A DNA stretch of 64,000 nt from a bacterium (GTDB lineage: Bacteria; SM23-81; DAOVCL01), in assembly GCA_029932675.1 (NCBI GenBank), contig JAOZPP010000004.1, positions 17,367 to 81,366 on the forward strand, given 5' to 3'. A program made the translations under genes and the position numbers. The first letter of the stretch is position 1. Each line of letters opens with the position of its first letter. Shown in pieces: positions 4,411 to 44,581 of this stretch. The notes under the pieces were generated by a model. The model did no database searches. It was given only the letters and a program-made list of their open reading frames with translations, and was not told the origin of the DNA.

Positions 4411-4459
4411 CCTATTTTCCCTATGTGGAGTCATCAACCAGTCATCAACCAAAAAGTCC

Positions 4460-4877: not shown

Positions 4878-4886
4878 GGGCCGGAG

Positions 4887-8082: not shown

Positions 8083-8108
8083 GGTGTCAGAACGCCTGTT
8101 CTGACACC
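8083..8108. repeat. Dispersed palindrome (hairpin)
   Basis: Perfect 11-bp arms GGTGTCAGAAC / GTTCTGACACC, 4-nt loop GCCT. Same family as 4266 and 8166. Confidence 0.65.
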
Positions 8109-8165
8109 AAAATAGCGGAGATACCCGTAGGCTTCCTCCTGCCTGCCCCTCCGATCATATAATGA

Positions 8166-8191
8166 GGTGGCAGAACCCCGGTTCTGCCACC
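8166..8191. repeat. Dispersed palindrome (hairpin)
   Basis: Perfect 11-bp arms GGTGGCAGAAC / GTTCTGCCACC, 4-nt loop CCCG. Differs from the copy at 8083 by compensating changes in both arms, so pairing is kept while sequence drifts. Confidence 0.65.
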
Positions 8192-8229
8192 CACCTGCCA
8201 GAGGGAGGGGGGATTCGCCAGGTTCTGGC

Positions 8230-8245
8230 TGGAAGGGCTCTTGCT
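8230..8245 (+). promoter_or_regulatory. Candidate sigma54 (-24/-12) promoter
   Basis: TGGAAGGGCTCTTGCT fits the sigma54 consensus TGGCACGNNNNTTGCW in TGG, the A and G of the -24 arm and TTGCT of the -12 arm, with GG and GC exactly 10 bases apart. The start point would be near 8256, just before the folded leader. The sigma54 activator ends only 460 bases upstream, which supports a real promoter. Two mismatches in the -24 arm leave doubt. Confidence 0.55.
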
Positions 8246-8270
8246 CTAACAAACCACAAGAGGCAAGCGA

Positions 8271-8339
8271 GGGCCGGTAGAGTGTGGCCCGATAATCTCC
8301 TTGTGGTCCCCCGGGAGATTAGCTGAATATCGATTCAGC
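8271..8339 (+). promoter_or_regulatory. Three-hairpin RNA leader
   Basis: Three consecutive perfect stems: GGGCC / GGCCC (8271-8290), AATCTCC / GGAGATT (8294-8320) and GCTGAA / TTCAGC (8322-8339). They lie between the sigma54 promoter and the ATG at 8359, ending 11 bases before its ribosome site. Likely a structured 5' leader that could control translation or stability of the 58-aa gene. No known riboswitch recognised. Confidence 0.45.
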
Positions 8340-8358
8340 CAACAGAAAAGAGGAGAAA

Positions 8359-8535
8359 ATGGTTGACTTTGAACCAGAAAACCCCTTAGATTCTGAGGAA
8401 GAAAAAGAATGCGAAACTGGTAATCTAAAAGGGAATTTGCTGATAAAGACAATAAGAAGAATAGGGAGGTTTGTTAAAGCCTTTTTCTCCGAAGAGGATG
8501 AGAAATATTGGAGAAGAGACCTTGACGGATTGTGA
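8359..8535 (+). CDS. 58-aa small acidic protein, unknown
   Basis: Small gene with an AGGAG ribosome site (8351-8355) close before ATG. The 58-aa product has an acidic N-terminus (VDFEPENPLDSEEEKE), a basic amphipathic middle (LLIKTIRRIGRFVKAFF) and an acidic tail (SEEDEKYWRRDLDGL). No signal peptide. I do not recognise a family. It is the first gene after the candidate sigma54 promoter and folded leader and lies 69 bases before the beta-propeller gene, so the pair may form an operon controlled by the upstream activator. The cationic middle segment would suit membrane or peptide interaction; that is speculation. Confidence 0.55.
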   Translation: MVDFEPENPLDSEEEKECETGNLKGNLLIKTIRRIGRFVKAFFSEEDEKYWRRDLDGL

Positions 8536-8604
8536 ACAAGCTCTTAGATTTAATACACGGGTTGTCCCTTATTTATTCTGTCGGTCCATCAGAGGCTACA
8601 ATAG

Positions 8605-11091: not shown

Positions 11092-11158
11092 TTAAACCCA
11101 AACTGAGAGCGAAGGTAAGGCTATACAGAACATTAGGAAGAAGTGAACGGTATTAAAC

Positions 11159-11224
11159 ATGAACAGGAGGCTGCCTATGGCTTACAAGTTCAGACGGAAG
11201 GGGAATAGACCATTGGCTTTCTAA
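11159..11224 (+). CDS. Possible 21-aa cationic micro-ORF
   Basis: ATG at 11159 opens a 21-codon frame (MNRRLPMAYKFRRKGNRPLAF); an internal ATG at 11177 has a perfect AGGAGG six bases ahead. The frame stops 18 bases before the protease gene. It may be a short peptide or leader, or chance. Only the ribosome site supports it. Confidence 0.25.
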   Translation: MNRRLPMAYKFRRKGNRPLAF

Positions 11225-11242
11225 TCGAGGGAGGCGATTGAA

Positions 11243-29757: not shown

Positions 29758-31149
29758 TTGCCGCAATTCAACAAGATAACAGATGAGGTTTTGAGGGAGA
29801 TCTCGGATATATGTGAGGTGACCACAGATACTGGGGTGACGGAAGCCTATGGGCGGGATGAGACATCTGACCTCTTCTCCCTCCCCGAGGCTGTGGTCAG
29901 GCCGACAAAGGCCGAACAGATCTCCCAACTCCTGAAGCTTGCCTCGCAGAGGCTCTTTCCAGTAACCCCTCGAGGATTGGGGACAGGCGTCTCCGGAGGG
30001 GCTATTCCGGTGGAAGGTGGACTGGTCATCTCCTTAGAGAAGATGAATCGGTTAAAGGATATCGACAAAGAGAATATGATGGCTGTGGTCGAACCAGGGT
30101 TGATCACTGGAGAGCTCCAAGGCAAGGTGGAGGAGTTGGGGCTCTTCTATCCCCCTGATCCGGCAAGCTTGGATTCCTGCAGCTTAGGGGGTAATGTGGC
30201 CGAGGGAGCAGGAGGCCCCCGCGCCTTTAAGTATGGCACCACCAAGGATTATGTCACTGGCCTGGAGTTGGCCTTAGCCTCTGGGGAACTAATTAGCTTA
30301 GGGGGAAAGATCATCAAGGATGTCTCCGGCTATAATCTCATTGGCACAATAATTGGCTCCGAGGGAACCTTAGGAATAATTACTTCTATCACCCTAAGGC
30401 TCATCCCCCTCCCCCCCCACAAGGTTGACCTCCTTGTCCCCTTCCCTTCCCTGGAAAAGGCAGGGGAGACCGTCTCCCTCTTAGTGGAGAAGGGGATCGT
30501 CCCGGCCACCATCGAGTTTATGGAAAGGGAAGCCCTCTTAGCCTCAGAGCAGAAGATCAAGAGGGAGGTCCCCTTCAGGGAGAAAGCGGCCCAACTGCTC
30601 ATTGAGATAGACGGATATAAAAAGGAGGAGCTGGAGGGGCTCTATGAAACTGTGGGAGAGATATGCCTGGACCAGGGGGCAGAGGATGTCTTAGTGGCCG
30701 ACAACCGGCCAGACCAGGAGAGGATGTGGGAGGCCCGCCGGGAGATCCCCGAGGGCTTAGCCCTCCTCAGTCCGGTGATTGACAAGGAGGATGTGGTCGT
30801 CCCCCGCAACCAGATAGCCACCTTCCTCAGGGCAAAAGGGGAGATAGCCAAAAAGTATGGGGTAAAGATCGTCTGCTTTGGCCATGCCGGTGATGGCAAC
30901 ATTCACACCAATGTCCTCAAAGAGGAGATGGCTGATGAGCAGTGGAAAAAGGTAAGAAAGGAGATAGACTATGAGCTTATCCGCACCGTCCTCTCCTTGG
31001 GAGGAACAATCACCGGGGAACATGGGATAGGGGTAGTGAAGAGGGAATATCTGAAGAAGTTCACCAATCCCACCACCCTCTCCCTGATGCGGGGGATAAA
31101 ACAGGCCTTCGACCCCCAAGGCATAATGAACCCCGGGAAGGTCTTGTGA
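29758..31149 (+). CDS. glcD: FAD-linked oxidase, glycolate oxidase GlcD-like
   Basis: A 463-aa flavoprotein of the FAD-binding 4 / FAD-oxidase C family that oxidises 2-hydroxy acids such as glycolate or lactate. N-terminal FAD domain: VVRPTKAEQISQLLKLA, PRGLGTGVSGGAIP, GLITGELQGKVEELGLFYPPDP, SLGGNVAEGAGG, GTTKDYV; C-terminal: FGHAGDGNIHTNV and TGEHGIGVVKREYL, with the substrate-binding Arg/His region. The GlcE/GlcF partners are not adjacent, so the exact substrate is uncertain. Of two TTG codons, 29758 lies 7 bases after GGAGGTG (29744-29750); 29752 is too close. The stop overlaps the start of the RadC-like gene (TGATG). Confidence 0.88.
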   Translation: MPQFNKITDEVLREISDICEVTTDTGVTEAYGRDETSDLFSLPEAVVRPTKAEQISQLLKLASQRLFPVTPRGLGTGVSGGAIPVEGGLVISLEKMNRLKDIDKENMMAVVEPGLITGELQGKVEELGLFYPPDPASLDSCSLGGNVAEGAGGPRAFKYGTTKDYVTGLELALASGELISLGGKIIKDVSGYNLIGTIIGSEGTLGIITSITLRLIPLPPHKVDLLVPFPSLEKAGETVSLLVEKGIVPATIEFMEREALLASEQKIKREVPFREKAAQLLIEIDGYKKEELEGLYETVGEICLDQGAEDVLVADNRPDQERMWEARREIPEGLALLSPVIDKEDVVVPRNQIATFLRAKGEIAKKYGVKIVCFGHAGDGNIHTNVLKEEMADEQWKKVRKEIDYELIRTVLSLGGTITGEHGIGVVKREYLKKFTNPTTLSLMRGIKQAFDPQGIMNPGKVL

Positions 31150-31535
31150 TGGGGAAGAAAGAGGTTAAAAGTGCCTTTACTGAAGAAGGAAGGCAAGTTG
31201 AGTGGCGCCACCCCGGGGGTAAATTACGGGATTGGGGCCCCAAGTCATTAACAAATCAGGAACTTCTAGCGATCCTTATTTCTACAGGAATACCAGGTAA
31301 AACTGCGGAAGATATTGCTAAGGAAATACTAGATAAATTTGGCTCCTTTAAAGGAATGGCAAACCAGCCGCTAGAAAAATTTCTCCAATTTAAAGGAATG
31401 GGAGACGTTAAAATTATTCGCATTGCAGCGGCTTTTGAGATAGCAAGAAGAATAACAGGGGAGGTTTTAGAAAAATATGAAGAGCAAAAAACCCAAAATT
31501 CCGGGAAAAGCCACACGAATATCAAACCCCTTTGA
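31149..31535 (+). CDS. RadC N-terminal (UPF0758 helix-hairpin-helix) domain protein
   Basis: A 128-aa protein containing only the helix-hairpin-helix N-terminus of RadC: GGKLRDWGPKSLTNQELLAILISTG, AEDIAKEILDKFGSFKGM, and KFLQFKGMGDVKIIRIAAAFEIARR. The C-terminal JAB/MPN metalloprotease-like domain of RadC (HxHxxxD) is absent; instead the frame runs 59 bases into the restriction-methylase gene. The overlap and shared direction suggest joint translation with that gene, and a role in the restriction system such as DNA binding. First gene of the A+T-rich defence island; begins at the stop of glcD. Confidence 0.75.
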   Translation: MGKKEVKSAFTEEGRQVEWRHPGGKLRDWGPKSLTNQELLAILISTGIPGKTAEDIAKEILDKFGSFKGMANQPLEKFLQFKGMGDVKIIRIAAAFEIARRITGEVLEKYEEQKTQNSGKSHTNIKPL

Positions 31536-34500
31536 CATCACTACTCATAGAACGGAGTGGACTTGTGCTGCCAAGCTTGCTGAGTGGATGAACTCCTACA
31601 TTAAGGACAAGAATTTACCTTTGGGCACTGCAGAGGTAGAAACCATCCAGGAAGGTGACCGAAAACGAGTCGATATTATTCTATTTGATAGTCCAGCAAA
31701 TCAAAAAGTGCTCTGCGTCATTGAAACCAAACAACCTTATTTTGATGTCTTTAATGAGAGCGAGCTCAAAGAACCTGCACGTAAAAAAGCCGTTAAGAGA
31801 AAAGCTCCGTACTTTGCTACCTGTAATTTCCAGTGGTTCATTTGGTTCAATACGGAGAGAGTGAACAAGATGGATCCAGAGGAAAGACAAATTCTCGAAA
31901 AATATCACCTCTCGGAAATTGAGGATTTAGACTACATAGAGGAACCAAGGTTCAAGAATCCCATCATAACTGGGCTCAGTAAGTTCTTACAGGAGCTAGT
32001 TGAGGTATCCAAGGGCAAAAAGCCTGAGCCATTACTTCCGATTGATGAGTTTCTGATATTTCGTCTCCATGAGAAAGTCAACAGACTTGCTCGCTATTAC
32101 AGAGTCATAATAAGAGATGCTACTCATAAAGACACGAAGTTTCAAAGTAAACTCCAGAAATGGTTTATAGATCAACAATGGCAGTTTACCTGGAAAGATT
32201 CTGATTACGATAAGGTGGCGAGACAGACTGCTTACCTTCTAATCAACAAAATCCTCTTCTATTACCTACTTAAAGCAAAAAAGACTTACCTTGCTTCTCT
32301 AGAGATTCCTGAAGACTTGACAAAAGGTGGGCAACTTCAGGCACAATTGCAAGCTTATTTTAGCTATGTTTTGAAAAAGATCGACTATGAGACTATCTAC
32401 AGCACCGATTTTATTGACCAGACGGCCTTCCCTGACAACAAAGAGGTTGTCTGTGAAATCAAAGACCTTGTTAATATCTTAAAAAGATATGACTTTTCTG
32501 AAATAGGGTATGAAATCATAGGAAATATCTTCCAACGTCTCATCCCTCAGAAAGAACAGCACAAGTTAGGTCAATACTTCACAAATCCTGACATCGTGGA
32601 TCTCATTTTAAGATTTTGTTTGAAACATGAGAAGGATAAAATATTGGACCCGTCCTGTGGTGCCGGAACTTTCCTTATGAGGGCATATAAACACAAAAAG
32701 ATAATGAATAATAGACTCTCGCATAGGGATATTCTTGAAACTCTTTGGGGAGTAGATATTGCAAAGTTTCCATCTCACCTTGCTACAATAAATCTCGCAC
32801 TACAAGATTTAGGAGAAGATAAGAATTACCCAAATATAGCTCAGGAAGACTTTTTTAATCTGCTTACTAGTCCTGAAGGATTAGAACTCCCTGAAAAATG
32901 GAGAAAAATTAGAGCAAAAACCCTCGGGGTGAAGGAAAGAGAGATCACTTATCCCAGATGGTTTGACTGTATTGTGGGGAACCCCCCATACACAAGACAA
33001 GAAGAGATTCCAGATATTACAGGTAAGTTAAGTTATAAAAAGAAATTGATTAAAAGTGCTCTTTACAATGTAAATCACAAAAAGATTGCCACTATTTCCA
33101 AAAGGGCGGGCATATATGTCTATTTCTTCATTCATGGAATGAAATTCTTACGGAATGGGGGAAGATTTGGTTTCATTGTTTCAAATTCTTGGCTTGATGT
33201 TGACTATGGGAGGGGACTGCAGGAATTCTTTTTGAAAAATTATAAAATCGTCGCCATCATTGAATCAAAGGTTGAACGATGGTTTGAAACAGCGGATATA
33301 AACACTTGTATAGTAATACTTGAAAAATGTAAAGATACAAAACAACGGAATGAGAATTTCGTGAAGTTTGTTTACTTATTCAAACCGCTCCGTCATTTTG
33401 TCCCTCCGGCACAAAAGAGATGGGAAGAACAAATTAAACGAGTTGATACTATTGATAGTTTAATCAAAACAATCCTTGCCCATAAAGAGTTCTACCAAAA
33501 TGAAGAAATAAGAATCTATCCTAAATTACAAAAAGAACTCTGGATGGAGGGCTATGATAAAAGGAATAAAAAATATGCTGGTTCAAAATGGGGTAAATAT
33601 ATTAGAGCACCAGAACCAATTATAAAAAAGATCTTGATGAATAGAAGATTATCTCTCCTGGGTTCTTTCGTCAAGGCTATTATGGAAGGCGAACCCACAG
33701 GTGCAAATGAATTCTTTTTTGTCACAAGAGAAATCATAAAGAAATTCAAAATAGAAAATACTTATTTGCATCCTGCGTTTAATAGTCCAAAGGATTCTAA
33801 ATCAATACTTATTACACAAACAAACAGCTATAGTTGGAAACTTCTTACGAACGCTTCAAAAGAGGAGTTGAAGGGAACAAATATTTTGAAATACATCAAA
33901 TGGGGAGAAAGAAAAGGATTCAGGAAACACTATTTTAAGGAAGATATCTGGTATTCAAGAAGCGATAGAAAGGCAGATTTATTGATTCCGAGAGGGATAT
34001 ACCAGAGGTTTATTTGCTTCTACAATGTTGATGGTCTTATTGCAAGTGATAGGTTTGTTGAAATTTTCATGCGATCAAAAGAGCTGAGAGAAATTACCGG
34101 AGCTTTCCTTAACTCCACTCTGTATTTTCTTTTGCTTGAACTTTACTGTCGGACAAATTTGGGTCAAGGGGCTTTGGATATTCAACCAACTGATATTAGA
34201 AAAATACCAATTCCAGATTTGACGGAACTTGATAAAAAGCTTGTTCAGCATATTCAAGAAGTCTTTGAGCAAGTTAGCAAAAGAGAGGTGAATGTTATAT
34301 TTGAAGAACTCGGTGTCAATTCTCCAGGAGAAGTTTCCCTTGACAAGGTCAAACCTGACCGCAGGGAACTGGATAAGATCGTTATGGGGGATATTTTAGG
34401 TTTGACGGAAGAGGAACAACTTGAAGTCTATCGTGCCGTCGTTGACCTGGTAAGTTCCCGGATTAAGAAGGCAAAGAGTGTAGAGCGGAAAAAGAAAATT

Positions 34501-34959
34501 AAGGGGGGCATAGATATTGATGCCTTTGTGAAGACAGTAATAGAGGGAATTGGAAAAAAGACTTTGGCAGAATTTTATCAAGAGAAAATACTAACACAAA
34601 AACCACTTTACACGAAGAAACTCCCTAAACCCACGAATGAGGTGGGGTTTGAAGCGGAGTTGGGTTTGAAATTTGAGAAGGAAATCCACAAATATCGACT
34701 AAATTCAGGTAAAAAACATATTTTCTGCAAATCTGAGCCCGAAGCCCGCTATCTAAAAGTTTGGATAGAAGCGGGATTGGAAAGTGTCAAAGTTCCCAAA
34801 GATGAAGATCGTTTAGTTAAGATAGTCCCTCAATTGGAAAGATTGATGGAGAAAACCAAAAAGATAATAGAGTCCTATACTGACTCTATCCTCCAACCTA
34901 AGCTCCGCCAGAAAATCTTCCACCAAATCTGGCAGAAATTAACTGAAGGAATTGAATAA
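31477..34959 (+). CDS. Type IIG-like restriction-modification enzyme (nuclease plus N6-adenine methylase)
   Basis: A 1160-aa single-chain enzyme. N-terminal PD-(D/E)xK nuclease: RVDIILF (Asp, about 63-69) and VIETKQP (ExK, about 80-87). Methylase: LGQYFTNP (motif X, about 363), LDPSCGAGTFL (motif I, about 389), FDCIVGNPPYTRQ (motif IV NPPY, about 495-507), FIVSNSWLDVDYG (about 565). About 700-900 is the likely target-recognition region. Residues about 956-1005 (DKVKPDRRELDKIV then LTEEEQLEVYRAV and KKAKSV) are the segment whose broken copies recur at 35118, 35876, 41346, 42104 and 44282. A further 150 C-terminal residues follow. Protects or cleaves DNA depending on methylation. Overlaps the RadC-like gene. 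Visibly A+T-richer than the flanking housekeeping genes, consistent with transfer. Confidence 0.88.
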   Translation: MKSKKPKIPGKATRISNPFDITTHRTEWTCAAKLAEWMNSYIKDKNLPLGTAEVETIQEGDRKRVDIILFDSPANQKVLCVIETKQPYFDVFNESELKEPARKKAVKRKAPYFATCNFQWFIWFNTERVNKMDPEERQILEKYHLSEIEDLDYIEEPRFKNPIITGLSKFLQELVEVSKGKKPEPLLPIDEFLIFRLHEKVNRLARYYRVIIRDATHKDTKFQSKLQKWFIDQQWQFTWKDSDYDKVARQTAYLLINKILFYYLLKAKKTYLASLEIPEDLTKGGQLQAQLQAYFSYVLKKIDYETIYSTDFIDQTAFPDNKEVVCEIKDLVNILKRYDFSEIGYEIIGNIFQRLIPQKEQHKLGQYFTNPDIVDLILRFCLKHEKDKILDPSCGAGTFLMRAYKHKKIMNNRLSHRDILETLWGVDIAKFPSHLATINLALQDLGEDKNYPNIAQEDFFNLLTSPEGLELPEKWRKIRAKTLGVKEREITYPRWFDCIVGNPPYTRQEEIPDITGKLSYKKKLIKSALYNVNHKKIATISKRAGIYVYFFIHGMKFLRNGGRFGFIVSNSWLDVDYGRGLQEFFLKNYKIVAIIESKVERWFETADINTCIVILEKCKDTKQRNENFVKFVYLFKPLRHFVPPAQKRWEEQIKRVDTIDSLIKTILAHKEFYQNEEIRIYPKLQKELWMEGYDKRNKKYAGSKWGKYIRAPEPIIKKILMNRRLSLLGSFVKAIMEGEPTGANEFFFVTREIIKKFKIENTYLHPAFNSPKDSKSILITQTNSYSWKLLTNASKEELKGTNILKYIKWGERKGFRKHYFKEDIWYSRSDRKADLLIPRGIYQRFICFYNVDGLIASDRFVEIFMRSKELREITGAFLNSTLYFLLLELYCRTNLGQGALDIQPTDIRKIPIPDLTELDKKLVQHIQEVFEQVSKREVNVIFEELGVNSPGEVSLDKVKPDRRELDKIVMGDILGLTEEEQLEVYRAVVDLVSSRIKKAKSVERKKKIKGGIDIDAFVKTVIEGIGKKTLAEFYQEKILTQKPLYTKKLPKPTNEVGFEAELGLKFEKEIHKYRLNSGKKHIFCKSEPEARYLKVWIEAGLESVKVPKDEDRLVKIVPQLERLMEKTKKIIESYTDSILQPKLRQKIFHQIWQKLTEGIE

Positions 34960-35154
34960 GGTGTAAAAGCAGTGGTAAAATTGAAGAAATGGCGGGTTGA
35001 ATGAAAGCGCTTGACCTACTTACGATGGGGGGTGGGAGGCTGATCCAAGATCCAGGTATGGGGCTGGGAAAGTCTGGGACGGAGGGTAGAGGACATCAAA
35101 TCGAGAATAGTAGAGGGCTGAAAAATAGGCTAGTGAAAGCGAGAAGTGTGTGAG
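34960..35154 (+). pseudogene. Spacer with short methylase-tail remnant before toxin copy 1
   Basis: No intact gene. Its end (35118-35153) reads in frame LKNRLVKARSV and stop, the same ending as the larger tail fragments at 35876 and 42104. The stop lies one base before the toxin ATG. From 35083 the sequence is identical to that before toxin copy 2 (from 41311). Confidence 0.55.
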
Positions 35155-35667
35155 ATGAAAGTAACCGCAGACGCATCTATTCTAATCCACCTTGCAGCCA
35201 TTGGAAGATTTTATCTATTGGAGGAGTTATTCGGTGAGGTAATGATCCCAGAAAGTGTCTATAAGGAGGTAGTTGTAGAAGGCTGGGGGCTTTCCGGTTC
35301 TTTAGAAACGGCGGAAGCCCTAAGAACGGGCCTTATAAAAGTAGGTGAAGTAATAGACAAGGAGAAAGTCAGAGAGTTCTCACAAAGATATAGAGTCAGC
35401 GCAACCAATGCCGAGGTCATTCAATTATCAAAAGAGTTGAACTCTAAAATTGTTTTGGCCGATGAGGAAGAAGTTAGAGATGCTGCACAGGAAGCTGGCC
35501 TTCAAGTGAAAGGTTGTTTGGGCATACTTGTAGATTCAGTGAAAAATAAGATCATCTCTTCTCGACAGGCTGTCCAAGATATCGACAATTTAGTTGCATC
35601 AGGTTATCGCATTAGCAATGATATAATTGATGGATTGAAAAACACTTTAAGGAGATGGGACAGATGA
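35155..35667 (+). CDS. PIN-like toxin of the DUF3368 family, copy 1
   Basis: A 170-aa protein: KVTADASILIHLAAIGRFYLL at the N-terminus holds the first PIN-domain Asp, SATNAEVIQLSKEL the central Glu region, and KIVLADEEEVRDAAQ the later acidic pair; these are the metal-binding positions of PIN ribonucleases. DUF3368 proteins pair with UPF0175 antitoxins, and such a gene follows with a 13-base overlap. Predicted RNase toxin. ATG 35155 is preferred over the upstream GTG 35146, which lies inside the preceding tail remnant. Identical to copy 2 at 41383. Confidence 0.85.
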   Translation: MKVTADASILIHLAAIGRFYLLEELFGEVMIPESVYKEVVVEGWGLSGSLETAEALRTGLIKVGEVIDKEKVREFSQRYRVSATNAEVIQLSKELNSKIVLADEEEVRDAAQEAGLQVKGCLGILVDSVKNKIISSRQAVQDIDNLVASGYRISNDIIDGLKNTLRRWDR

Positions 35668-35882
35668 AAGCCTCCTTGATGATACCAGAAAGGATAAGGG
35701 AAAAGTTCCTGGGGGAGATACTGGATATGTATGCGCAAGGTGAGTTGGCTGCCAGCAAAGCTGCTCAGATGCTTGGCATACCGAGGGCTACTTTCTATAG
35801 CCTATTGGCTGAAACAAACACCCCTCTCCCCAAAAAGCTTAATGATAGCATCAGAAAAGAGTTGGAAGAATTATTAAAGTGA
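35655..35882 (+). CDS. UPF0175-family antitoxin, copy 1
   Basis: A 75-aa protein with a compact helix-turn-helix-like segment (LAASKAAQMLGIPRATFYSLL, about 32-52), typical of UPF0175. It should neutralise the DUF3368 toxin and may repress the operon. Toxin comes before antitoxin here. The last codons (LLK and stop) coincide with the first codons of the methylase-tail fragment read in another frame. Identical to 41883-42110. Confidence 0.82.
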   Translation: MGQMKASLMIPERIREKFLGEILDMYAQGELAASKAAQMLGIPRATFYSLLAETNTPLPKKLNDSIRKELEELLK

Positions 35883-36013
35883 CACCTGACCGCCGGGAAG
35901 TGGATAGAATCGTCTTTGAAGCCCTGAAATTAACTGAAAAGGAACAACTTGAAGTTCACCGGGCAGTGGGGGAGTTGGTGAAGAACAGGCTCGTTAAGGC
36001 AAGGAGTGTGTAG
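35876..36013 (+). pseudogene. Methylase 3'-tail fragment 1
   Basis: In frame: KVTPDRREVDRIV, FEALKLTEKEQLEVHRAV, GELVKNRLVKARSV, stop (36011-36013). It aligns without gaps to residues about 957-1002 of the restriction-methylase (DKVKPDRRELDKIV...LTEEEQLEVYRAV...KKAKSV). No start and no methylase core: a detached tail. The closely matching ending in all fragments suggests a common source gene different from, but related to, the intact methylase. Confidence 0.8.
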
Positions 36014-36037
36014 TACGGATACAGTGGATGGTTGCAG

Positions 36038-37153
36038 ATGAGCGAATTGATGAAGGCAGATTATAAAGAACTTCTTGCAAAGGTTTCGGGTCTGCTTGAG
36101 CGGGCAAGACACGAAGCTGTAAGAAGGATTAATACGGTTATCGTAGAAACCTATTGGGAAATTGGAAGATTGATTGTAGAAGAGGAACAGAAGGGCAAAA
36201 AACGGGCCGAGTATGGTAAAAGGTTGTTACAGAAATTATCAATTGATTTGACAAAAAGATATGGACGGGGATTCTCAACCGACAATTTAGAGGCTATGAG
36301 AAAGTTTTACTTGATTTATCCTAGTTTTGGCAGGAAGATTTCCGAGACAATGTCTCGGAAATTAGGAAAGACTCAAGCTGATATCCCAGAGATTGAATTT
36401 CTGAAGAATCTTTCATGGTCTCACATTCGTGAAATTATAACACTTGAGGAACCTCTTGCAAGGTCTTTTTATGTGATAGAGACAATTAAAAATAACTGGT
36501 CAGTGAGGGAATTGAAGAGACAAAAAGGCTCCCTACTCTTTGAGAGACTTGCCCTGAGCAAAGAGAAAAAGAAGGTAATGGAGCTGGCAAAGAGAGGGCA
36601 GATTATTGAGAAGCCCGAGGATATAGTCAAAGACCCCTATGTATTGGAGTTCCTGGGTATCCCTGAGAGACATCACTATACTGAATCACAGTTGGAACAG
36701 GCTCTTATTGACCATCTTCAAGAATTTCTTTTAGAACTCGGTAAAGGCTTCACTTTTGTTGCCCGACAAAAGAGGATTACTATTGACAACGAACATTTTT
36801 ACATTGACCTGGTCTTTTACAACCGCATCGTGCGGTGTTTTGTCTTGATTGACCTCAAAGTAGGCAAGTTTACTCCGGCTGATACTGGGCAAATGAATTT
36901 TTATCTCAATTACATCAAGGCCAATGAAGTGATGGAGGATGAAAACCCTCCTGTGGGCATTCTTCTCTGCACTGAGGCTGACAGAAGCAGAGTCTTTGTA
37001 GAGTATGCCCTGGGAGGATTGGATAATAAAATTTTCGTCTCCAAATACAAATTGTATCTCCCGACGAAAAGAGAACTTGAGGCAGAAATCAAGAAAGAGA
37101 CGGCTCGTTTACAACTTATTTCACCCAGGGAGATGAAAAGCAGCAAAGATTAG
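36038..37153 (+). CDS. DUF1016 / YhcG-type PD-(D/E)xK nuclease
   Basis: A 371-aa protein with the DUF1016 N-terminal domain (ARHEAVRRINTVIVETYWEIG, KRLLQKLSIDLTKRYGRGFS, LSWSHIREII) and the C-terminal YhcG nuclease domain with YIDLVFYNRIVRCFVLIDLK (catalytic Asp and D-x-K, about 256-276) and GQMNFYLNYI. Family members are predicted DNA nucleases common in defence islands and often next to type I or IIG restriction genes. ATG 36038 is used; TTG 36032 is possible. The last 20 codons contain no anomaly. DUF2851-like and helicase genes follow. Confidence 0.87.
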   Translation: MSELMKADYKELLAKVSGLLERARHEAVRRINTVIVETYWEIGRLIVEEEQKGKKRAEYGKRLLQKLSIDLTKRYGRGFSTDNLEAMRKFYLIYPSFGRKISETMSRKLGKTQADIPEIEFLKNLSWSHIREIITLEEPLARSFYVIETIKNNWSVRELKRQKGSLLFERLALSKEKKKVMELAKRGQIIEKPEDIVKDPYVLEFLGIPERHHYTESQLEQALIDHLQEFLLELGKGFTFVARQKRITIDNEHFYIDLVFYNRIVRCFVLIDLKVGKFTPADTGQMNFYLNYIKANEVMEDENPPVGILLCTEADRSRVFVEYALGGLDNKIFVSKYKLYLPTKRELEAEIKKETARLQLISPREMKSSKD

Positions 37154-37221
37154 GTTTTCTTAAATATAGGAATGATTCATCTTGAAGCTGAGGCATTTCC
37201 ATTTTATAAAACACCTTAGCA

Positions 37222-38082
37222 GTGGCAATTGAGAATCTACTTGATACAGACTGGCGAGAGAAATTGAAATCTCTTGGCCTTGAGGGGTTTCTTGATCTCT
37301 TGGGCACAGAAAGGCTCGCACAGAAGAAGGCCCGGATGGCAAATCTTTTAAGAATTGCCAATCCCGATGAGGCACTTTATCGGGAGATCATGGTTGCCCT
37401 GGGCTACAAAAACAATAAGGTTCAGTTTCTGGAGCTGGCACTAATACTACCCTATTCAGAGATTCGTGCCTTAAAAGATAGTGAAAGAATTGAGAAGGCT
37501 TTACTCTATCGGGCAGGATTTCTGCAATCGAAAGATGGGCTTCCGGAGAATTTCGATGGTTCCCTGAAGATGGATCGCTCGGTATGGCAACTCCGGGGCA
37601 CAAGACCGGCAAATTTTCCTGCTACCAGAATAAAGGGTATCGCACCACTGCTCTCTGAGTCCTGCGAAACAGGGCTGTGCAAGCTAATCGAAGCGAAGAT
37701 TGCTGACAACTACCTGCCGACCACAAATAGAAGATCCGCTGGTAGCTTCTGCAAAGAGCTCACAAAAATCTTTACTACGGGCGAGAGGAAAGCAGTGGGT
37801 CAAACAAGAGCTTTGGAAATCCTCTTTAACATAATCCTGCCGTTCTTTATGACTTATTTTGAAAGGGAGGGTAAACGAAAATATGCAGAGTTCCTCCTAA
37901 GCATTTACGATCAACACCCTATTCTCTCAGAGAACTCTGTTATCAGGGCGATGAAGGCTCAACTATTCGGTGAAGATAAAAAGAAAGCCAGGCAAGTGGT
38001 CAATTCAGTGAGGCGCTATATGGGGTTAATTCACTTGCACAATGTTGTATTGAAGGGAGAAAAGCTCGATGACTATTCCTGA
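37222..38082 (+). CDS. DUF2851-like protein, C-terminal half only
   Basis: A 286-aa protein resembling the C-terminal part of DUF2851 proteins: ALYREIMVALGYKNNKVQFLELALILP and the later GTRPANFPATRI, ETGLCKLIEAKI, LFNIILPFF and RRYMGLIHLHNVV. The N-terminal part of that family (about 150 residues) is missing, and a stop lies four codons upstream of the GTG start. Either a natural short form or a truncated gene. It overlaps the helicase by 14 bases, so the two are probably translated together. The first 114 bases including the start region recur at 44006-44119. Function unknown. Confidence 0.6.
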   Translation: MAIENLLDTDWREKLKSLGLEGFLDLLGTERLAQKKARMANLLRIANPDEALYREIMVALGYKNNKVQFLELALILPYSEIRALKDSERIEKALLYRAGFLQSKDGLPENFDGSLKMDRSVWQLRGTRPANFPATRIKGIAPLLSESCETGLCKLIEAKIADNYLPTTNRRSAGSFCKELTKIFTTGERKAVGQTRALEILFNIILPFFMTYFEREGKRKYAEFLLSIYDQHPILSENSVIRAMKAQLFGEDKKKARQVVNSVRRYMGLIHLHNVVLKGEKLDDYS

Positions 38083-41000
38083 CATCATCGATAACAGCGC
38101 CGAGGGGCGCAGATTGGCCGATGTCTTGAAGGAAATTATTGTCCCCGGCACCAAAGTGTATATCGCTTCAGGCTATTTCAACCTGGAAGGTTTCAGACTC
38201 ATTAGTGAGAAATTGAAGGAGACGCAAGGAGTGCGCCTTCTTCTTGGCCGGGCTTTATCCCCCCAGGATGTGCGTTCACCAAAGTTTTTCCTTGAAGAAT
38301 TAAGAGAAGAGGCAGAGGCAAAGATGGGGACCCCAGAGGCCGAAGGTCTAATCCGGGAATTCCTCCGCTGGCTTGAGAACCCTGGGGTTGGGGTGAAGAT
38401 CTACAACAAGGGATTTTATCACGGAAAATTCTATATCGTTGAAGGAGTTCCGGTTTTGGGAGCAGTGGCTATCTCTGGCTCTTCGAACTTCACCCAAGCT
38501 GGCCTTACCAGAAATACCGAATTCAACACCGTCTTAAAGCAGGGGAGCGCGGTAAAAGAAACAAAGCGGGTTTTTGACCGACTATGGAATGAGAGCGAAG
38601 ACTACAAACAGGACCTGAAATCGCTTTACTCCGATTTCACCGCCGCTTACAGTCCTTATGAAATATATATCAAGGCTCTCTACGCCTATTTTAGGGATAA
38701 GTTTGCTTCGGTTTCTCCAACTGATGAGGTTCCCAGCCCTATCGTTCTCACTGATTTTCAGCGCGACGGCTATTTAGCTGCCCTCGATACCCTTGATCGC
38801 TATAGCGGTGTTCTGCTCTCCGACTCCGTGGGGTTAGGTAAAACATATCTTGCCCTGAAGCTTCTGGATGACTTTGCCTATAGGTTGAGAGAAAAGGCTC
38901 TGGTCATCTGTCCGGCGCAACTTAAGGGGATTCTTTGGGAACCCAAACTGAGAGAAGCCGGCATCAGAGCAGATATTGTCCACAGGGAGCGGGTGAGCCG
39001 GAAGGACTTCCCAATAGAAGAGTACCAAGATCACGACCTTATCGTCGTGGACGAGTCTCACAACTTTCGCAACTCCCAGACAAACTGTTGGAAAAACCTC
39101 TCCTTATGTGTGATAAGAGGTAAACCAAAGAAAGTAATACTTATCACTGCAACTCCTGTAAATAACTCCGTTTTTGACCTTTACAACCAGATTCGCTTGA
39201 TCACCAAGGACAGGGACAGTTTCTTCGCCGCGGCTGGTATCCCAAGCCTATGGGGCTATTTTCTTAGAGCAGATAAGGAGAAAGAGACTCTATACGATCT
39301 TTTAGAGGAAATAGCTGTTAGGCGCAGCCGGCCTTTTATCAAGAGGAACTATCCGGATGTAGCAATTGATGGTGAGCCGATAAGATTTCCAGAAAGGGAG
39401 CTTCACACAACCCGATACAACCTTGAGCAGACCTATCAGGGGCTTTACAAAGAATGCTCTCAAACCATCGAAAACTTGACCCTGGCAAGCTACAACATTG
39501 AGTCGTATCGGAAGGAGATCAGACAAGAGCAGCTTGAGCTTTTCGAGCATATCAACAAGGCCTTTCTTGCCAAAGGGTGGTCTGAAAAAGAGAGCAAGGA
39601 CTTCTTAATGAAATTGGGTAGGAATGAGGCGGTAATTTCGATTTTGAAGGTGCTCTTTTTAAAGCGGCTTGAATCCAGCATTGAGGCCTTTAGAATCAGC
39701 ATAGAAAGATTGGTTGATTTTCAGAGGAAATTTCTTCAGGTCTTTAAGGAAGGAAGAATACTGGATAGAGACGCCTATCGCAAGTTCTTCCTTCAAAGCG
39801 GTGAGGATGAATCTACAGAGGAAGGTGAGAGCATCTCCACTGTCCTAGAGAAGTTGCCACAGATAAATTTGGAAGATTTCGATGTAGAGGCAATCAAACG
39901 CTCTGTTCAGAAGGATATCGGTGCTCTTGAGCAAATTTACAAAAAGGTCGAGAGAATAAAATCGGGGAAAGATACGAAGCTGCAGATTCTCAAAGAGAAA
40001 TTAAGCGGTGAACTAAAGGGAAAGAAAGTCATCATCTTTACCTATTTTAAGGATACTGCTCGTTACCTTTATCGCTGGCTAGGCGGCAACAGGGAGTGGC
40101 TGGAAAGTGTGGTCTCGCCTGAGGAGCGAAGGGCGGTGGAAAGTTTCTTGAGCCACGCCTCTCTTTCATCCCCGAACATCTCAATCACGGATAGTGGGAT
40201 AGACCCTGATGAGCGTAAGAACAGAATCATGCGCTTCTCCCCGATAGCCAACGGTCGCCCTGAGCTAAAAGGAACAGAAAGGGAGATTCAAATCCTCATC
40301 TCAACCGATGTCCTCTCGGAAGGCCAGAATCTGCAGGATGCTGATACGGTAATAAATTATGATCTTCCCTGGAATCCTGTTCGCCTCATTCAGCGAGTGG
40401 GAAGGATCGATCGTCTCAAGTCTCCGCACCCTCTGGTGCATCTTTACAACTTCTTCCCTGAAGACGCATTGGAATCCCTCCTAGGCATTCTGGAGAGGCT
40501 TTATCAGAAACTCGATGCCATTAATCGCAGTGTAGGCTTAGATGTAAGCACCTTAGGGGAGACGCCTACGCCGAAGGATTTTGGCTTCATTCGTGACCTT
40601 TTTGCAGGAAAAGCCGAGGTTTTAGAGGAGTTAGAAGGGATGTCCGAACTGGCCGTCGGTGAGTTCCTTAAACAAGAACTCTTGCAGTTTTTAGAAAAGG
40701 TAGGTGAAGAGAAGATAAGGAGAATACCCAATGGTGTGGGAAGTGGTCTACACAAAGAGGGACAGCATGGACTTTTCGTGGCTTTCAAAGACAAGGAGCG
40801 CCATTATTGGTGCTATTACGACTTCAAGACTGGTAAGGTCCTTGAGAACAAACTCCAGGTCATTCGACTTATCAGATGCGAAGAGAGTGAACCACGGATA
40901 GAGCCGGATTTTGATGTCTATGAGGTCATTGAGAAAGCGAAGAGACATATCCTCGCCCGTTTGCGCACTTCTTCCTTAAAGCCGCCCATGCTTAAGGCAC

Positions 41001-41263
41001 CTCAAAACCAAATCGTAAACTGGTTACAAGGATTAGCTTCCAAAGCAACTGATCTTCTTGAATATTTTCGCGAACCTTTGCCAGAGTTATATCTGCGGGA
41101 GCTTCGTTCCTTATGGATTAACAGGGCCTCATCAGAGGAGGTACTCATCCTTAAGCTAAGGGAGTTCAAAGAGTCCCATCCAATTTCACCAGCAATGGAA
41201 AGAACTCCACCGCCTGAAGAGCCCAAGGTCAAAGTTGTTTGCTATCTTGCAGTTATGAGTTAG
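38069..41263 (+). CDS. PLD-domain / SNF2-type helicase, defence-associated
   Basis: A 1064-aa protein fusing two enzymes. About 20-180: phospholipase D-like nuclease half-site with H-G-K-F-Y-I and GSSNFTQAGLTRNTE (one HKD motif). About 230-1000: SNF2/helicase superfamily 2 with DSVGLGKTYLALKLL (Walker A, about 252), IVVDESHNF (DESH box, about 327), LITATPVNNS (motif III, about 358), and the second lobe QILISTDVLSEGQNLQDAD and LPWNPVRLIQRVGRIDRL (about 743-795). Proteins of this layout are frequent in bacterial defence islands and recall DISARM, where PLD (DrmC) and SNF2 (DrmD) are separate, but the other DISARM genes are not here. Translationally coupled to the DUF2851-like gene. Confidence 0.85.
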   Translation: MTIPDIIDNSAEGRRLADVLKEIIVPGTKVYIASGYFNLEGFRLISEKLKETQGVRLLLGRALSPQDVRSPKFFLEELREEAEAKMGTPEAEGLIREFLRWLENPGVGVKIYNKGFYHGKFYIVEGVPVLGAVAISGSSNFTQAGLTRNTEFNTVLKQGSAVKETKRVFDRLWNESEDYKQDLKSLYSDFTAAYSPYEIYIKALYAYFRDKFASVSPTDEVPSPIVLTDFQRDGYLAALDTLDRYSGVLLSDSVGLGKTYLALKLLDDFAYRLREKALVICPAQLKGILWEPKLREAGIRADIVHRERVSRKDFPIEEYQDHDLIVVDESHNFRNSQTNCWKNLSLCVIRGKPKKVILITATPVNNSVFDLYNQIRLITKDRDSFFAAAGIPSLWGYFLRADKEKETLYDLLEEIAVRRSRPFIKRNYPDVAIDGEPIRFPERELHTTRYNLEQTYQGLYKECSQTIENLTLASYNIESYRKEIRQEQLELFEHINKAFLAKGWSEKESKDFLMKLGRNEAVISILKVLFLKRLESSIEAFRISIERLVDFQRKFLQVFKEGRILDRDAYRKFFLQSGEDESTEEGESISTVLEKLPQINLEDFDVEAIKRSVQKDIGALEQIYKKVERIKSGKDTKLQILKEKLSGELKGKKVIIFTYFKDTARYLYRWLGGNREWLESVVSPEERRAVESFLSHASLSSPNISITDSGIDPDERKNRIMRFSPIANGRPELKGTEREIQILISTDVLSEGQNLQDADTVINYDLPWNPVRLIQRVGRIDRLKSPHPLVHLYNFFPEDALESLLGILERLYQKLDAINRSVGLDVSTLGETPTPKDFGFIRDLFAGKAEVLEELEGMSELAVGEFLKQELLQFLEKVGEEKIRRIPNGVGSGLHKEGQHGLFVAFKDKERHYWCYYDFKTGKVLENKLQVIRLIRCEESEPRIEPDFDVYEVIEKAKRHILARLRTSSLKPPMLKAPQNQIVNWLQGLASKATDLLEYFREPLPELYLRELRSLWINRASSEEVLILKLREFKESHPISPAMERTPPPEEPKVKVVCYLAVMS

Positions 41264-41382
41264 AAACTAAATGGGTAAACTTAGAAAGGTTATGAAAACC
41301 TGGGGATATCAGGGTAGAGGACATCAAATCGAGAATAGTAGAGGGCTGAAAAATAGGCTAGTGAAAGCGAGAAGTGTGTGAG

Positions 41383-41895
41383 ATGAAAGTAACCGCAGAC
41401 GCATCTATTCTAATCCACCTTGCAGCCATTGGAAGATTTTATCTATTGGAGGAGTTATTCGGTGAGGTAATGATCCCAGAAAGTGTCTATAAGGAGGTAG
41501 TTGTAGAAGGCTGGGGGCTTTCCGGTTCTTTAGAAACGGCGGAAGCCCTAAGAACGGGCCTTATAAAAGTAGGTGAAGTAATAGACAAGGAGAAAGTCAG
41601 AGAGTTCTCACAAAGATATAGAGTCAGCGCAACCAATGCCGAGGTCATTCAATTATCAAAAGAGTTGAACTCTAAAATTGTTTTGGCCGATGAGGAAGAA
41701 GTTAGAGATGCTGCACAGGAAGCTGGCCTTCAAGTGAAAGGTTGTTTGGGCATACTTGTAGATTCAGTGAAAAATAAGATCATCTCTTCTCGACAGGCTG
41801 TCCAAGATATCGACAATTTAGTTGCATCAGGTTATCGCATTAGCAATGATATAATTGATGGATTGAAAAACACTTTAAGGAGATGGGACAGATGA
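41383..41895 (+). CDS. PIN-like toxin of the DUF3368 family, copy 2
   Basis: Same 170-aa protein as 35155-35667, with no difference. The preceding stop of the short tail remnant (reading LKNRLVKARSV) lies one base before the ATG. See copy 1 for motifs. Two identical toxins with two identical antitoxins can cross-protect. Confidence 0.85.
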   Translation: MKVTADASILIHLAAIGRFYLLEELFGEVMIPESVYKEVVVEGWGLSGSLETAEALRTGLIKVGEVIDKEKVREFSQRYRVSATNAEVIQLSKELNSKIVLADEEEVRDAAQEAGLQVKGCLGILVDSVKNKIISSRQAVQDIDNLVASGYRISNDIIDGLKNTLRRWDR

Positions 41896-42110
41896 AAGCC
41901 TCCTTGATGATACCAGAAAGGATAAGGGAAAAGTTCCTGGGGGAGATACTGGATATGTATGCGCAAGGTGAGTTGGCTGCCAGCAAAGCTGCTCAGATGC
42001 TTGGCATACCGAGGGCTACTTTCTATAGCCTATTGGCTGAAACAAACACCCCTCTCCCCAAAAAGCTTAATGATAGCATCAGAAAAGAGTTGGAAGAATT
42101 ATTAAAGTGA
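41883..42110 (+). CDS. UPF0175-family antitoxin, copy 2
   Basis: Same 75-aa protein as 35655-35882. It overlaps the toxin by 13 bases and the tail fragment 2 by 7 bases. Confidence 0.82.
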   Translation: MGQMKASLMIPERIREKFLGEILDMYAQGELAASKAAQMLGIPRATFYSLLAETNTPLPKKLNDSIRKELEELLK

Positions 42111-42241
42111 CACCTGACCGCAGGGAACTGGATAGAATCATCTTCGAGGCTCTGGGCTTGACTGAGGGGAAGCAACTTGAGGTCTAGCGGGCGGTGGTGG
42201 AGTTGGTGAAGAACAGACTGGTTAAGGCAAGGAGTGTATAA
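42104..42241 (+). pseudogene. Methylase 3'-tail fragment 2, with in-frame stop
   Basis: Reads KVTPDRRELDRII, FEALGLTEGKQLEV, stop, RAVVELVKNRLVKARSV, stop. The stop TAG replaces the Tyr codon of the other copies (LEVYRAV). It is similar to fragment 1 but differs at many positions, unlike the identical toxin-antitoxin module before it. So the repeat boundary (42121) falls inside the tail. Confidence 0.8.
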
Positions 42242-42259
42242 TTTCACAAAGAGCAAAAC

Positions 42260-43948
42260 ATGACGAGAAAAGAAATACAAAGGCTTATCAAGCAACCTGA
42301 AGGACAATTCTTTGAGAAGAAGAGTTGCCTCGAAAAGAAAGCGGATGGAAGAACAAGAAGCCGTAAGGCGAAAGATGTAGCTAAGGATGTGGCAGAGACT
42401 TTATCAGCTATGGCTAATGCTGATGGAGGTTCGCTAATCCTCGGTGTGGAGGATGATGACACAGTCAGCGGTGTTAACCATCCCAGCGACCGTATCCAAG
42501 TTATTGAGAAAGCTCCTTTGAATCTTGTTAGACCACCACTGAAAACGACTGTAGCGAGAACATATATTCAAAAGCAAATGTTACTGGTATTCAGTGTTGA
42601 CTGGAGTCCAAAGGTTCACCAGCTCACCGATGGTAGATACCTGCTCAGGGTTGGTGACAGCAACATACCATTTCCTGCAAAGGATATTGAGGCCATCAAA
42701 AGGTCTAAATTACAAGCACTATGGGAAAACCAAATTGTTGAAGGAGCAACTGTTGAAGACCTCGACCATGAGCTTATGAGAGAATTAGCAAGCAAAGTTG
42801 GGATAAACGCCAACATAGAGAAATTCCTGCAACACTATAAGCTTATTGAGTATTATAACCGCACAATAAAACTAAAACGGGCTGCACTGCTTTTGTTTGG
42901 GAAAGACCCACTAAGGTGGCATCCGCGTTGTGGTATAGATTTTGTGAAGTTCGAGGGAACAGAAAGGAAGTATGGAGGGGCGCTTAATATTGTGAAAAGA
43001 GAAAGAATCGAGACCCCACTTGTTTTACTTATCGAAGAGACCTACAAGGTAATCGCCCCTCATATCAAGGAAAGGCAGATTCTACACGATCTATTTTTCG
43101 TGGAGCAGCTTGAGTATCCATCCTTTGCCTGGCAGGAGGCAATAGTCAATGCTGTAGCTCATCGAGATTACAGTATATTAGGTCTTTCCATTGAAATATG
43201 GATGTTCGATGACCGGATCGAAGTGAGAAGCCCTGGGCTGCTCCCTGAGCCTGTAACTATTGAAAGACTTCTTAAAAGGGAGCGTATTCATGCAAGCCGC
43301 AATCCACTAATTGTCAGAGTCCTGACAGATTTGGGGTATATGCGTGAGATGGGAGAAGGAATCCCAAGAATGTTTGAAGAGATGGAGAAAAACGGACTCT
43401 ATTCACCAGAACTAAGGATTGAAGCCGATTCCATATTTACTGTGGTTTTGAAGAATCAACCCGTTTATACTCCGGATGATTTGCGATGGCTTGAAAGGTA
43501 TTCAACTATCCCTTTGAGTTCGAATCAGAAAAGGATTTTGCTCTTTGCAAGAGTTCATGGAATGCGCTTTACGAGTCGAGATTACCAGAAGATTTGTAGT
43601 GTAGACATCTATTCAGCATCACGTGATATCAAAGATCTTATGAGAAAGGGCATAGTACGCTTACAAAAGAAGGGTGGAAGAATTTATGAGATATTGGAAG
43701 GCAAGGAAGATGAGTTTCCTGAATTTCCCGAAGGGTACCTTGAAGTAAGAATGATTGTCGAAAGAAAGGGATATGTAAAAAACGAAGACTTGAGGGGTGT
43801 TTTGAAGCTATCAAGAGTTCAAGCCAAGTGGTTGTTCCAAAAATACTTAAATTTAGGTCTTTTGAAAATGGAGGGTCAGGGGCGGGGGGCAAGGTATGTT
43901 CCGACAGAAAAATTCTGGAAGACGAGAAATGGACAATTCAAAAAATAA
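42260..43948 (+). CDS. AlbA_2 (Schlafen-type) / GHKL ATPase-domain protein
   Basis: A 562-aa protein of the group annotated as ATP-binding protein or RecG-like transcriptional regulator. N-terminal AlbA_2 domain: E-x(n)-EKKSC, then DVAETLSAMANADGGSLILGVEDDDTVSGV (about 38-75). Middle: HATPase_c_4 part with WQEAIVNAVAHRDYS (about 293-307), DDRIEVRSPG and REMGEGIPRMFEEM (about 370-383). C-terminal winged-helix segments (about 420-545). Such proteins are common in islands and have been linked to regulation and anti-phage functions; the role here is not known. It follows tail fragment 2 by 18 bases. Confidence 0.82.
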   Translation: MTRKEIQRLIKQPEGQFFEKKSCLEKKADGRTRSRKAKDVAKDVAETLSAMANADGGSLILGVEDDDTVSGVNHPSDRIQVIEKAPLNLVRPPLKTTVARTYIQKQMLLVFSVDWSPKVHQLTDGRYLLRVGDSNIPFPAKDIEAIKRSKLQALWENQIVEGATVEDLDHELMRELASKVGINANIEKFLQHYKLIEYYNRTIKLKRAALLLFGKDPLRWHPRCGIDFVKFEGTERKYGGALNIVKRERIETPLVLLIEETYKVIAPHIKERQILHDLFFVEQLEYPSFAWQEAIVNAVAHRDYSILGLSIEIWMFDDRIEVRSPGLLPEPVTIERLLKRERIHASRNPLIVRVLTDLGYMREMGEGIPRMFEEMEKNGLYSPELRIEADSIFTVVLKNQPVYTPDDLRWLERYSTIPLSSNQKRILLFARVHGMRFTSRDYQKICSVDIYSASRDIKDLMRKGIVRLQKKGGRIYEILEGKEDEFPEFPEGYLEVRMIVERKGYVKNEDLRGVLKLSRVQAKWLFQKYLNLGLLKMEGQGRGARYVPTEKFWKTRNGQFKK

Positions 43949-44005
43949 AATGGACAGCTCTGCGTTTCTTAAGATCCATTTTTTAAGATGTCCATTTTAG
44001 GCAAG

Positions 44006-44119
44006 ACACCTTAGCAGTGGCAATTGAGAATCTACTTGATACAGATTGGCGAGAGAAATTGAAATCTCTTGGCCTTGAGAGGTTTCTTGATTTCTTGGGC
44101 ACAGAAAGGTTCGCACAGA
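44006..44119 (+). pseudogene. Truncated copy of the DUF2851-like gene start
   Basis: 114 bases matching 37211-37324 with four substitutions, including the bases before the GTG start. It breaks off after about 33 codons and runs into the next fragment. Confidence 0.85.
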
Positions 44120-44281
44120 GGATTATCCAGACGACAAACCTCACCCAAGTGCACTCTTCTTAGGTTGGATTAAAAGCAAGCCCTTGCATGTTTTAGCTGC
44201 CTTAGATGAAACCAATGAATGGGCTTACATTATTACCGCATATGAACCAAGCCTTGAATACTTTGAGCCTGATTTGAAAAC
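44120..44281 (+). pseudogene. 3' fragment of a DUF4258-type gene
   Basis: In frame YPDDKPHPSALFLGWIKSKP, then LHVLAALDETNEWAYIITAYEPSLEYFEPDL, the C-terminal half of DUF4258 proteins (small RelE-like toxin-type domain). The N-terminal half is missing, and the end is fused to methylase-tail fragment 3. Confidence 0.65.
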
Positions 44282-44356
44282 AAAGAACAACTTGAAGTTT
44301 ACCGGGCAGTGGGGGAGTTGGTAAAGAACAGGCTCGTTAAGGTGAGGAGTGTGTGA
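44282..44356 (+). pseudogene. Methylase 3'-tail fragment 3
   Basis: Reads KEQLEVYRAVGELVKNRLVK then VRSV and stop (44354-44356). Only the last 25 codons remain. A short frame starting ATG 44358 (MDAVKMINPCSE, stop) follows immediately, probably the remnant start of another gene. Confidence 0.75.
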
Positions 44357-44383: not shown

Positions 44384-44581
44384 TTGCTCCGAGTGATGTT
44401 ATCATCCCCCAGGTACAGATCCTATGATCGAACGGGGAAGGGAAAAATAACCAGCGGCGAGATACAGAAGATGTTCGATGTTAGTAGGGATACAGCAAAC
44501 AGGTATTTGAAGAAGTTATCAAAGCTGAAGTTGATAGAAAGGCACGGAGAGGGTAGATCCACATATTACGTTCTTAGTTAA
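44384..44581 (+). CDS. Winged-helix DNA-binding fragment
   Basis: A 65-codon frame with a winged helix-turn-helix (GKITSGEIQKMFDVSRDTANRYL, LKLIERHGEGRSTYYVLS). It looks like the C-terminal domain of a larger regulator, for example an AlbA_2-type or Fic-type protein. Starts available are TTG 44384 or ATG 44396, neither with a convincing ribosome site. Most likely a remnant at the right edge of the island. Confidence 0.45.
   Translation: MLRVMLSSPRYRSYDRTGKGKITSGEIQKMFDVSRDTANRYLKKLSKLKLIERHGEGRSTYYVLS

Follow-up and report, generated by a model that had tools for sequence, protein, structure and literature searches.

The DNA analysed here (the window) comprises 64,000 nucleotides of contig JAOZPP010000004.1 (assembly GCA_029932675.1, positions 17,367 to 81,366 of the forward strand) from a bacterium of the GTDB lineage SM23-81; coordinates below are those of the window unless a locus of another genome is named. 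It contains a defence island whose modules stand behind short, broken copies of the 3' end of a DNA methyltransferase (MTase) gene, here called tails. There are five of them (t1 to t5), each keeping 12-46 terminal codons of the MTase and ending 0-30 bp ahead of the next module. The island, which is encoded on the plus strand throughout, runs from t1 through a PIN/DUF3368 toxin gene with its UPF0175 antitoxin gene, t2, a DUF1016 nuclease gene, a DUF2851 gene, an HKD/PLD-Snf2 helicase gene, t3, a second PIN and UPF0175 pair, t4, an AlbA_2 gene, a copy of the DUF2851 head, the end of a DUF4258 gene and t5 to a winged-helix remnant. A search of the genome found no sixth tail, so that the tails are confined to this island. 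The island open reading frames examined by Pfam include no integrase or recombinase.

The tails differ in their state of preservation. The tail t2 (35876-36013) consists of the final 45 codons and stop of a lost MTase in an open frame, and its GTG overlaps the antitoxin stop codon (GTGA). The tail t4 (42104-42241) also has 45 codons, interrupted by a single in-frame TAG at a Tyr codon, and t5 (44282-44356), which is close to t2, keeps the final 24 codons and stop. These three are far above chance in tblastn (E 4e-24, 5e-19 and 3e-10 for t2, t4 and t5, respectively). The heavily decayed t1 (35118-35153) reads LKNRLVKARSV-stop and t3 (41346-41381) has the same sequence; this match spans 11 codons only and has an E value of 0.11 standing alone. 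Both are carried by an exact 811-bp duplication, one copy of which (35083-35893) contains t1, the toxin and antitoxin genes and the start of t2, and the other (41311-42121) t3, the second gene pair and the start of t4. The left flanks of the two copies are unrelated and the right end lies within a tail, past which t2 and t4 diverge (83% identity over the whole tail). Since the duplicate carries both, t1 and t3 count as a single event. The sequences thus read as three separate stranded tails (t2, t4 and t5) plus one duplicated unit (t1/t3). The first-pass annotation of this DNA, made from the letters alone, had placed all five tails correctly, each directly before a module, and had recognised the stop at the Tyr codon, the short t5 and the lack of an integrase.

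The genes between the tails are of two kinds, payloads and core genes. The first payload is a PIN-like toxin gene (35146-35667; DUF3368 E 2e-5, PADLOC PDC-S70 E 5e-28) with a UPF0175 antitoxin gene (35655-35882; E 1e-7) whose stop codon overlaps t2. Behind t2 lies a DUF1016/YhcG PD-(D/E)XK nuclease gene (36032-37153; PF06250 E 3e-59). About 30 loci of DUF1016 homologues, whether in other genomes or at a different place in this one, have no tail upstream within 1.5-kb flanks; DUF1016 is therefore rejected as a tail-linked gene and appears to have been recruited to a tail only here. The DUF2851 gene (37222-38082; PF11013 E 5e-20) is a core partner that marks the right-hand boundary of the slot behind the tail; it is present in about 20 fetched loci, mostly directly following the slot. 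The core effector is the HKD/PLD-Snf2 helicase gene (38069-41263; PLDc_2, SNF2 and Helicase_C, PADLOC 'HKD+Snf2' E 1e-88). Behind t4 is a gene for a protein with SLFN AlbA_2 and HATPase_c_4 domains (42260-43948; PF04326 E 9e-18), a payload that also occupies the slot behind an MTase tail in loci L052 and L111. Its module is bounded on the right by 139 bp that repeat the 5' head of DUF2851 (44003-44141; 90% identical to 37208-37346), after which comes the 3' portion of a gene for a BrnT-like DUF4258 toxin (44142-44281; PF14076 E 6e-8) running into t5; both features had been overlooked in the first-pass annotation. The remnant downstream of t5 (44384-44581), recognised by Pfam scan, is what is left of a winged-helix payload. 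In locus L048, a 93-bp copy of the HKD-Snf2 5' head (2085-2177 of that locus) is followed by a gene of 235 residues and then by the full HKD-Snf2 gene, suggesting that the heads of right-hand core genes can also be duplicated, as with DUF2851 in the window.

The tails match the extreme C-terminus of an MTase subclass of about 1100-1300 residues, the best named match being an MTase of a Thermococcus profundus plasmid (77%). They had been related to the intact Eco57I-type MTase gene just upstream of the island (31477-34959; Pfam Eco57I E 4e-24), but that gene belongs to a different subclass and is not their parent because its tail-like segment (34345-34482) is internal, with about 160 residues following it, and is just 65-70% identical to the tails. 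An HKD-Snf2 helicase gene, often accompanied by DUF2851, lies near the MTase with this C-terminus in Thermus and Thermococcus and in the majority of 80 further loci. In genome G138, a complete tail-bearing MTase is followed by an accessory gene, a second gene and an HKD-Snf2 helicase gene whose product is 46% identical to that of the window. Because the order is the same, the island is best read as an HKD-Snf2/MTase system minus its MTase. The best explanation of the tails is that they derive from the 3' ends of MTases of a defence operon comprising an HKD/PLD-Snf2 helicase, an IIG-like N6-MTase and, often, DUF2851, the MTase having been lost here.

The intact upstream MTase gene has a partner of its own. 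A gene for UPF0758_N, the N-terminal part of RadC only (31146-31535, plus strand; PF20582 E 3e-17), overlaps its start. The same overlap with this MTase subclass is found in four genomes (the window's, L041 at 7458-11265, L044 at 3035-6827 and L045 at 2110-5261), which suggests that the two form a conserved unit. In L045, an IS21 element (IstA-like and IstB; 5351-7590) splits the MTase at about residue 913-938, just ahead of the tail-like segment.

Among 42 full-length MTases, the tail is the most conserved 45-codon window, with an amino acid identity of 0.77 against a mean of 0.40. The identity at 4-fold sites is 0.33 in the tail and 0.30 elsewhere. Since these sites are no more alike than in the rest of the gene, the tail is a stretch of homology conserved as protein rather than an att site. 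An att-like DNA recombination site was therefore rejected, and the idea, present in the first-pass annotation, of the tail as a dedicated DNA site is not supported.

The survey for tails covered 386 related genomes, 80 further loci and 395 genomes of a single phylum (Nitrospirota). The tail is encoded in 18 of the 386 related genomes, and the bacterial and archaeal loci that contain it number more than 100. IMG/VR yielded none in viruses by a pattern scan combined with tblastn. Two plasmid records carry it, each at an MTase end (split into two ORFs in Thermus) and none as an orphan. The first genes after the tail (n=97) fall into 53 families or sequence clusters and half of them begin no more than about 30 bp from the stop codon, many at -4 to +10 bp relative to it. 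The place directly after the MTase stop codon is thus a hypervariable payload slot. Occupants, including some genes at later array positions, are SIR2, TIR, OLD/TOPRIM, AAA_13, Cmr1-type RAMP, HNH, DUF3800, DUF3644, metallo-beta-lactamase, radical SAM, HigB, ParE, PemK/MazF, HicB, UPF0175/PIN, DUF4258, ImmA/DUF4411, AlbA_2, Y1/RAYT and core genes. In L107 (10016-11381), an orphan MTase tail lies 149 bp ahead of a cmr1-like RAMP gene, so that one possible occupant of the slot is a type III CRISPR module. In several contigs the sequence stops within about 100 bp of a tail (L092 1-147, L101 1-139, L129 4856-4978 and L068 3789-3938), as if assemblers had broken on repeated or strain-variable tails. 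The first-pass annotation had named tails found only in this genome, or downstream genes without variety, as signs of a single local duplication history; neither is the case.

About 15 genomes, from several phyla, have broken arrays with several tails. More than one tail per locus was found in L041 (from the window's genus), L047, L055, L064, L070, L074, L096, L099, L118 and L126, and multi-tail loci are present in 6 of the 23 tail-positive genomes of the Nitrospirota sample. Locus L183 reads MTase, tail, a decayed DUF559-like gene (recognised from the translated spacer), tail, a ParE-type toxin-antitoxin (TA) pair, tail and DUF2851. In L184 the order is MTase, RAYT, tail, an OLD-type ATPase gene and, further on, DUF4258, tail and HKD-Snf2. 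Locus L185 consists of tail, HigBA and tail, and L186 of tail, an RHH/PIN pair, tail, a fragment, tail and HNH. Locus L126 has four tails; its tail-HigBA unit matches one that follows a complete MTase in L080, with 77% identity over 1.5 kb starting at -62 of the tail. The arrays have a polarity: all 111 tails lie on the same strand as the MTase, and extra tails are downstream of the attached tail in 6 of 6 loci. Remnants of the 3.5-kb gene are mostly 55-230 bp long (a few reach about 430 bp), and the short ones are nearly all 3' ends.

Tails of one locus have separate histories. Over 10 same-locus pairs plus one pair from the window and a congener, 107.7 of 215.5 synonymous sites and 76.3 of 750.5 non-synonymous sites are changed, giving a pN/pS (the ratio of these two proportions) of 0.20; among t2, t4 and t5 it is 0.19-0.25 (0.25 for t4 against t2). 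Because the differences are mainly synonymous, the tails diverged inside working MTase genes before they were stranded. Same-locus tails are mostly 64-95% identical, and for 13 of the 22 extra tails compared, the nearer match is a tail from another genome. Together with the low pN/pS, this indicates that they come from different functional MTases and not from local duplication.

Comparisons between genomes show where homology begins and ends. DNA homology typically starts 145-205 bp before the end of the tail and continues into the same payload. The payloads of L056/L060 and of L082/L130 have an amino acid identity of 64-65%, against 31-35% in the specificity part (TRD) or core of the MTase. 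The sister loci L111 and L121 have flanks that are 89 and 92% identical and a replaced TRD (71%), with 92% identity again from -193 of the tail. These contrasts suggest that the tail boundary is where recombination changes partners. The AlbA_2 payload of L111 (9539-11227) survives in L121 (10147-10260) as its first 66 or so and last 33 or so bp, so that L121 appears to be a nearly clean payload loss beside a swapped specificity domain. The pairs L112/L124, L075/L076 and L120/L121 look co-inherited.

Probably, then, the tails are MTase 3' ends left stranded by displacement at the slot behind the MTase, through one-sided homologous recombination. Incoming DNA made up of an MTase 3' end and a payload from a related system would pair with the 3' end of the resident MTase gene, where conservation is highest. 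The other end of the incoming DNA would join illegitimately, usually inside the resident tail, and the old payload would shift downstream behind a truncated tail. Repeated insertion would build an array of tail-payload units in which both tails and payloads decay, while the MTase itself could be lost or its TRD swapped. Recombination between repeats would presumably remove long duplications and favour short, diverged scars. The ends of the 811-bp block, a tail on the right and unrelated DNA on the left, are in keeping with one homologous and one illegitimate junction. The sequences show the tails, the slot and its diversity, the recurrence and polarity of the arrays and the independent origin of the tails; the mode of recombination and the order of events are inferred.

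Several points weigh against this explanation. The insertion step was not observed between close strains, and L111/L121 shows a TRD swap ending at the tail together with a payload deletion, not a payload insertion. Distant tails are just 65-75% or so identical in DNA, which means that homologous pairing must use donors closer than those sampled. The exact 811-bp repeat comes from a draft assembly of 116 contigs. Most loci were fetched via the tail, so that remnant counts are biased; the Nitrospirota sample was drawn evenly yet was also scanned by tail. The window's own phylum is represented by four genomes.

Alternatively, whole defence operons may have landed side by side and lost their redundant MTase bodies by deletion, with the tails spared because the next gene could not lose its promoter or ribosome-binding region. 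Tails without any MTase, in the window, L118, L126, L185 and L186, would be expected of such a history, as would L187 and L188, in which an MTase with a different C-terminus stands just ahead of an orphan tail. However, deletions of random length would not leave remnants that mostly coincide with the conserved 3' block, and the MTase is still upstream, with the tail alone repeated, in L055, L064, L074, L183 and L184. This origin is accordingly considered unlikely.

A mobile-element enzyme, such as a Y1/RAYT-like transposase, might instead recognise the tail and move tail-bounded cassettes. Y1/RAYT-like genes lie directly behind MTase tails in L126, L064, L041, L067, L112, L122, L124, L184, L187 and L188, the last three being further cases from the Nitrospirota sample. 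Every RAYT-like gene in about 100 tail-fetched loci starts 4-100 bp after a tail, and Pfam gives a Y1_Tnp match. Yet several RAYT copies of the same genomes are away from tails, one of them directly ahead of an hsdS-like gene (L133), most arrays lack RAYT, the window genome has none and the synonymous sites of the tail are not conserved. Since RAYT genes are also found away from tails and are absent from the window genome, they are treated as payload. RAYTs may favour restriction-modification operons in general. As a general driver of the arrays, RAYT is weakened by the same distribution and is improbable.

It is very improbable that the tails were retained for a function, whether by encoding a small peptide or by coupling translation to the next gene. 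The open frame of t2 with its GTGA overlap and the many genes that begin within a few bp of the tail stop are in keeping with such a role, but many orphan tails, t4 included, have in-frame stops, frameshifts or heavy truncation. A single local history, in which a tail and its neighbouring sequence were copied repeatedly in this genome and then decayed, can hardly be correct: the 811-bp block was copied locally without change, and t2, t4 and t5 are closer to one another than to any sampled tail in a sample without close relatives, but their mostly synonymous divergence rejects it as the sole cause for these three, and the arrangement recurs with other payloads in unrelated genomes.

Displacement at the slot behind the MTase thus retains most of the first-pass interpretation, which had proposed that modules are gained or exchanged by recombination at a methylase 3' end. 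Exchange beside the conserved 3' end is borne out by the diversity of the slot and by the recurrence of arrays, and recombination there is probable; the interpretation as a whole is partly supported. A short recognisable methylase tail provides a searchable scar for the growth of defence islands. As a tail marks each insertion, the sequence reveals in what order and from where defence payloads arrived, and unknown genes behind tails become candidates for defence or TA function; many of the 53 families found here are nameless. A wider proposal, that the MTase 3' end is a reusable platform which loads and sheds defence genes across bacteria and archaea, with TRD change coupled to effector change and possibly with help from a neighbouring Y1/RAYT transposase that acts on tail DNA, is speculative and rather doubtful.

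Among known systems, integron cassette arrays are also ordered series of small gene modules, many being TA pairs, with a repeated element in between, but no integrase was found among the island open reading frames examined and the repeat of the island is protein-coding and not conserved as DNA. A passage of PMC3031569, citing Nobusato 2000 and Furuta 2010, mentions restriction-modification genes whose insertion duplicates a long target stretch of variable length. The likeness to that passage is a long duplicated target piece on both sides; here, by contrast, the end of a restriction-modification gene is the target and not the insert, and the flanking copies are divergent (mostly 64-95%). The sole exact copy is the 811-bp TA block, in place of near-identical direct target repeats.

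BREX and BREX-related (BR) operons embed backup effectors (nucleases, OLD, Schlafen, PIN and HEPN) among core MTase and helicase genes (PMC12839542). The Type-2 BR system also has an HKD-Snf2 helicase, the counterpart of that at 38069-41263, and an N6-MTase (PMC12839542). The island is not to be filed there because the Pfam scan of ten island proteins gave neither DUF3780 nor a DUF499-type ATPase. A text search of PMC12839542 found no occurrence of the word 'recombination'.

The closest parallels are displacement arrays. In the orphan arrays of rhs/cdiA-CT, interpreted as a fossil record of past transfers under a displacement model, displaced downstream modules have the same orientation and carry fragments homologous to the intact upstream gene (PMC4927057). 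In those arrays the toxin tip of the protein itself, with an immunity gene, makes up the payload, whereas here it consists of unrelated standalone genes, and the anchor is a DNA MTase and not a secreted polymorphic toxin. For the type VI secretion system (T6SS) effector-immunity arrays of Vibrio cholerae, displacement by homology-facilitated illegitimate recombination has been proposed (PMC5361080). These arrays likewise have a conserved upstream anchor, with the new module beside it and the old one displaced downstream with a 3' remnant (PMC5361080). The T6SS module is a variable effector with an immunity gene (PMC5361080), whereas here a DNA methylase gene is followed, after its stop codon, by separate defence or TA genes and leaves its own conserved 3' end as the scar. 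The island shares with displacement arrays a conserved anchor end beside a variable module, downstream same-strand modules that carry pieces of the anchor, and different donors. The claim of the first-pass annotation that no described system uses a methylase tail in this way holds for the tail itself, since no description of methylase-tail arrays or scars was found in the open-access literature; the displacement logic and the embedded effectors were already known. The findings also suggest that the logic of exchange put forward for rhs/cdi and T6SS arrays operates in anti-phage operons of bacteria and archaea, with the end of a DNA methylase as its anchor.

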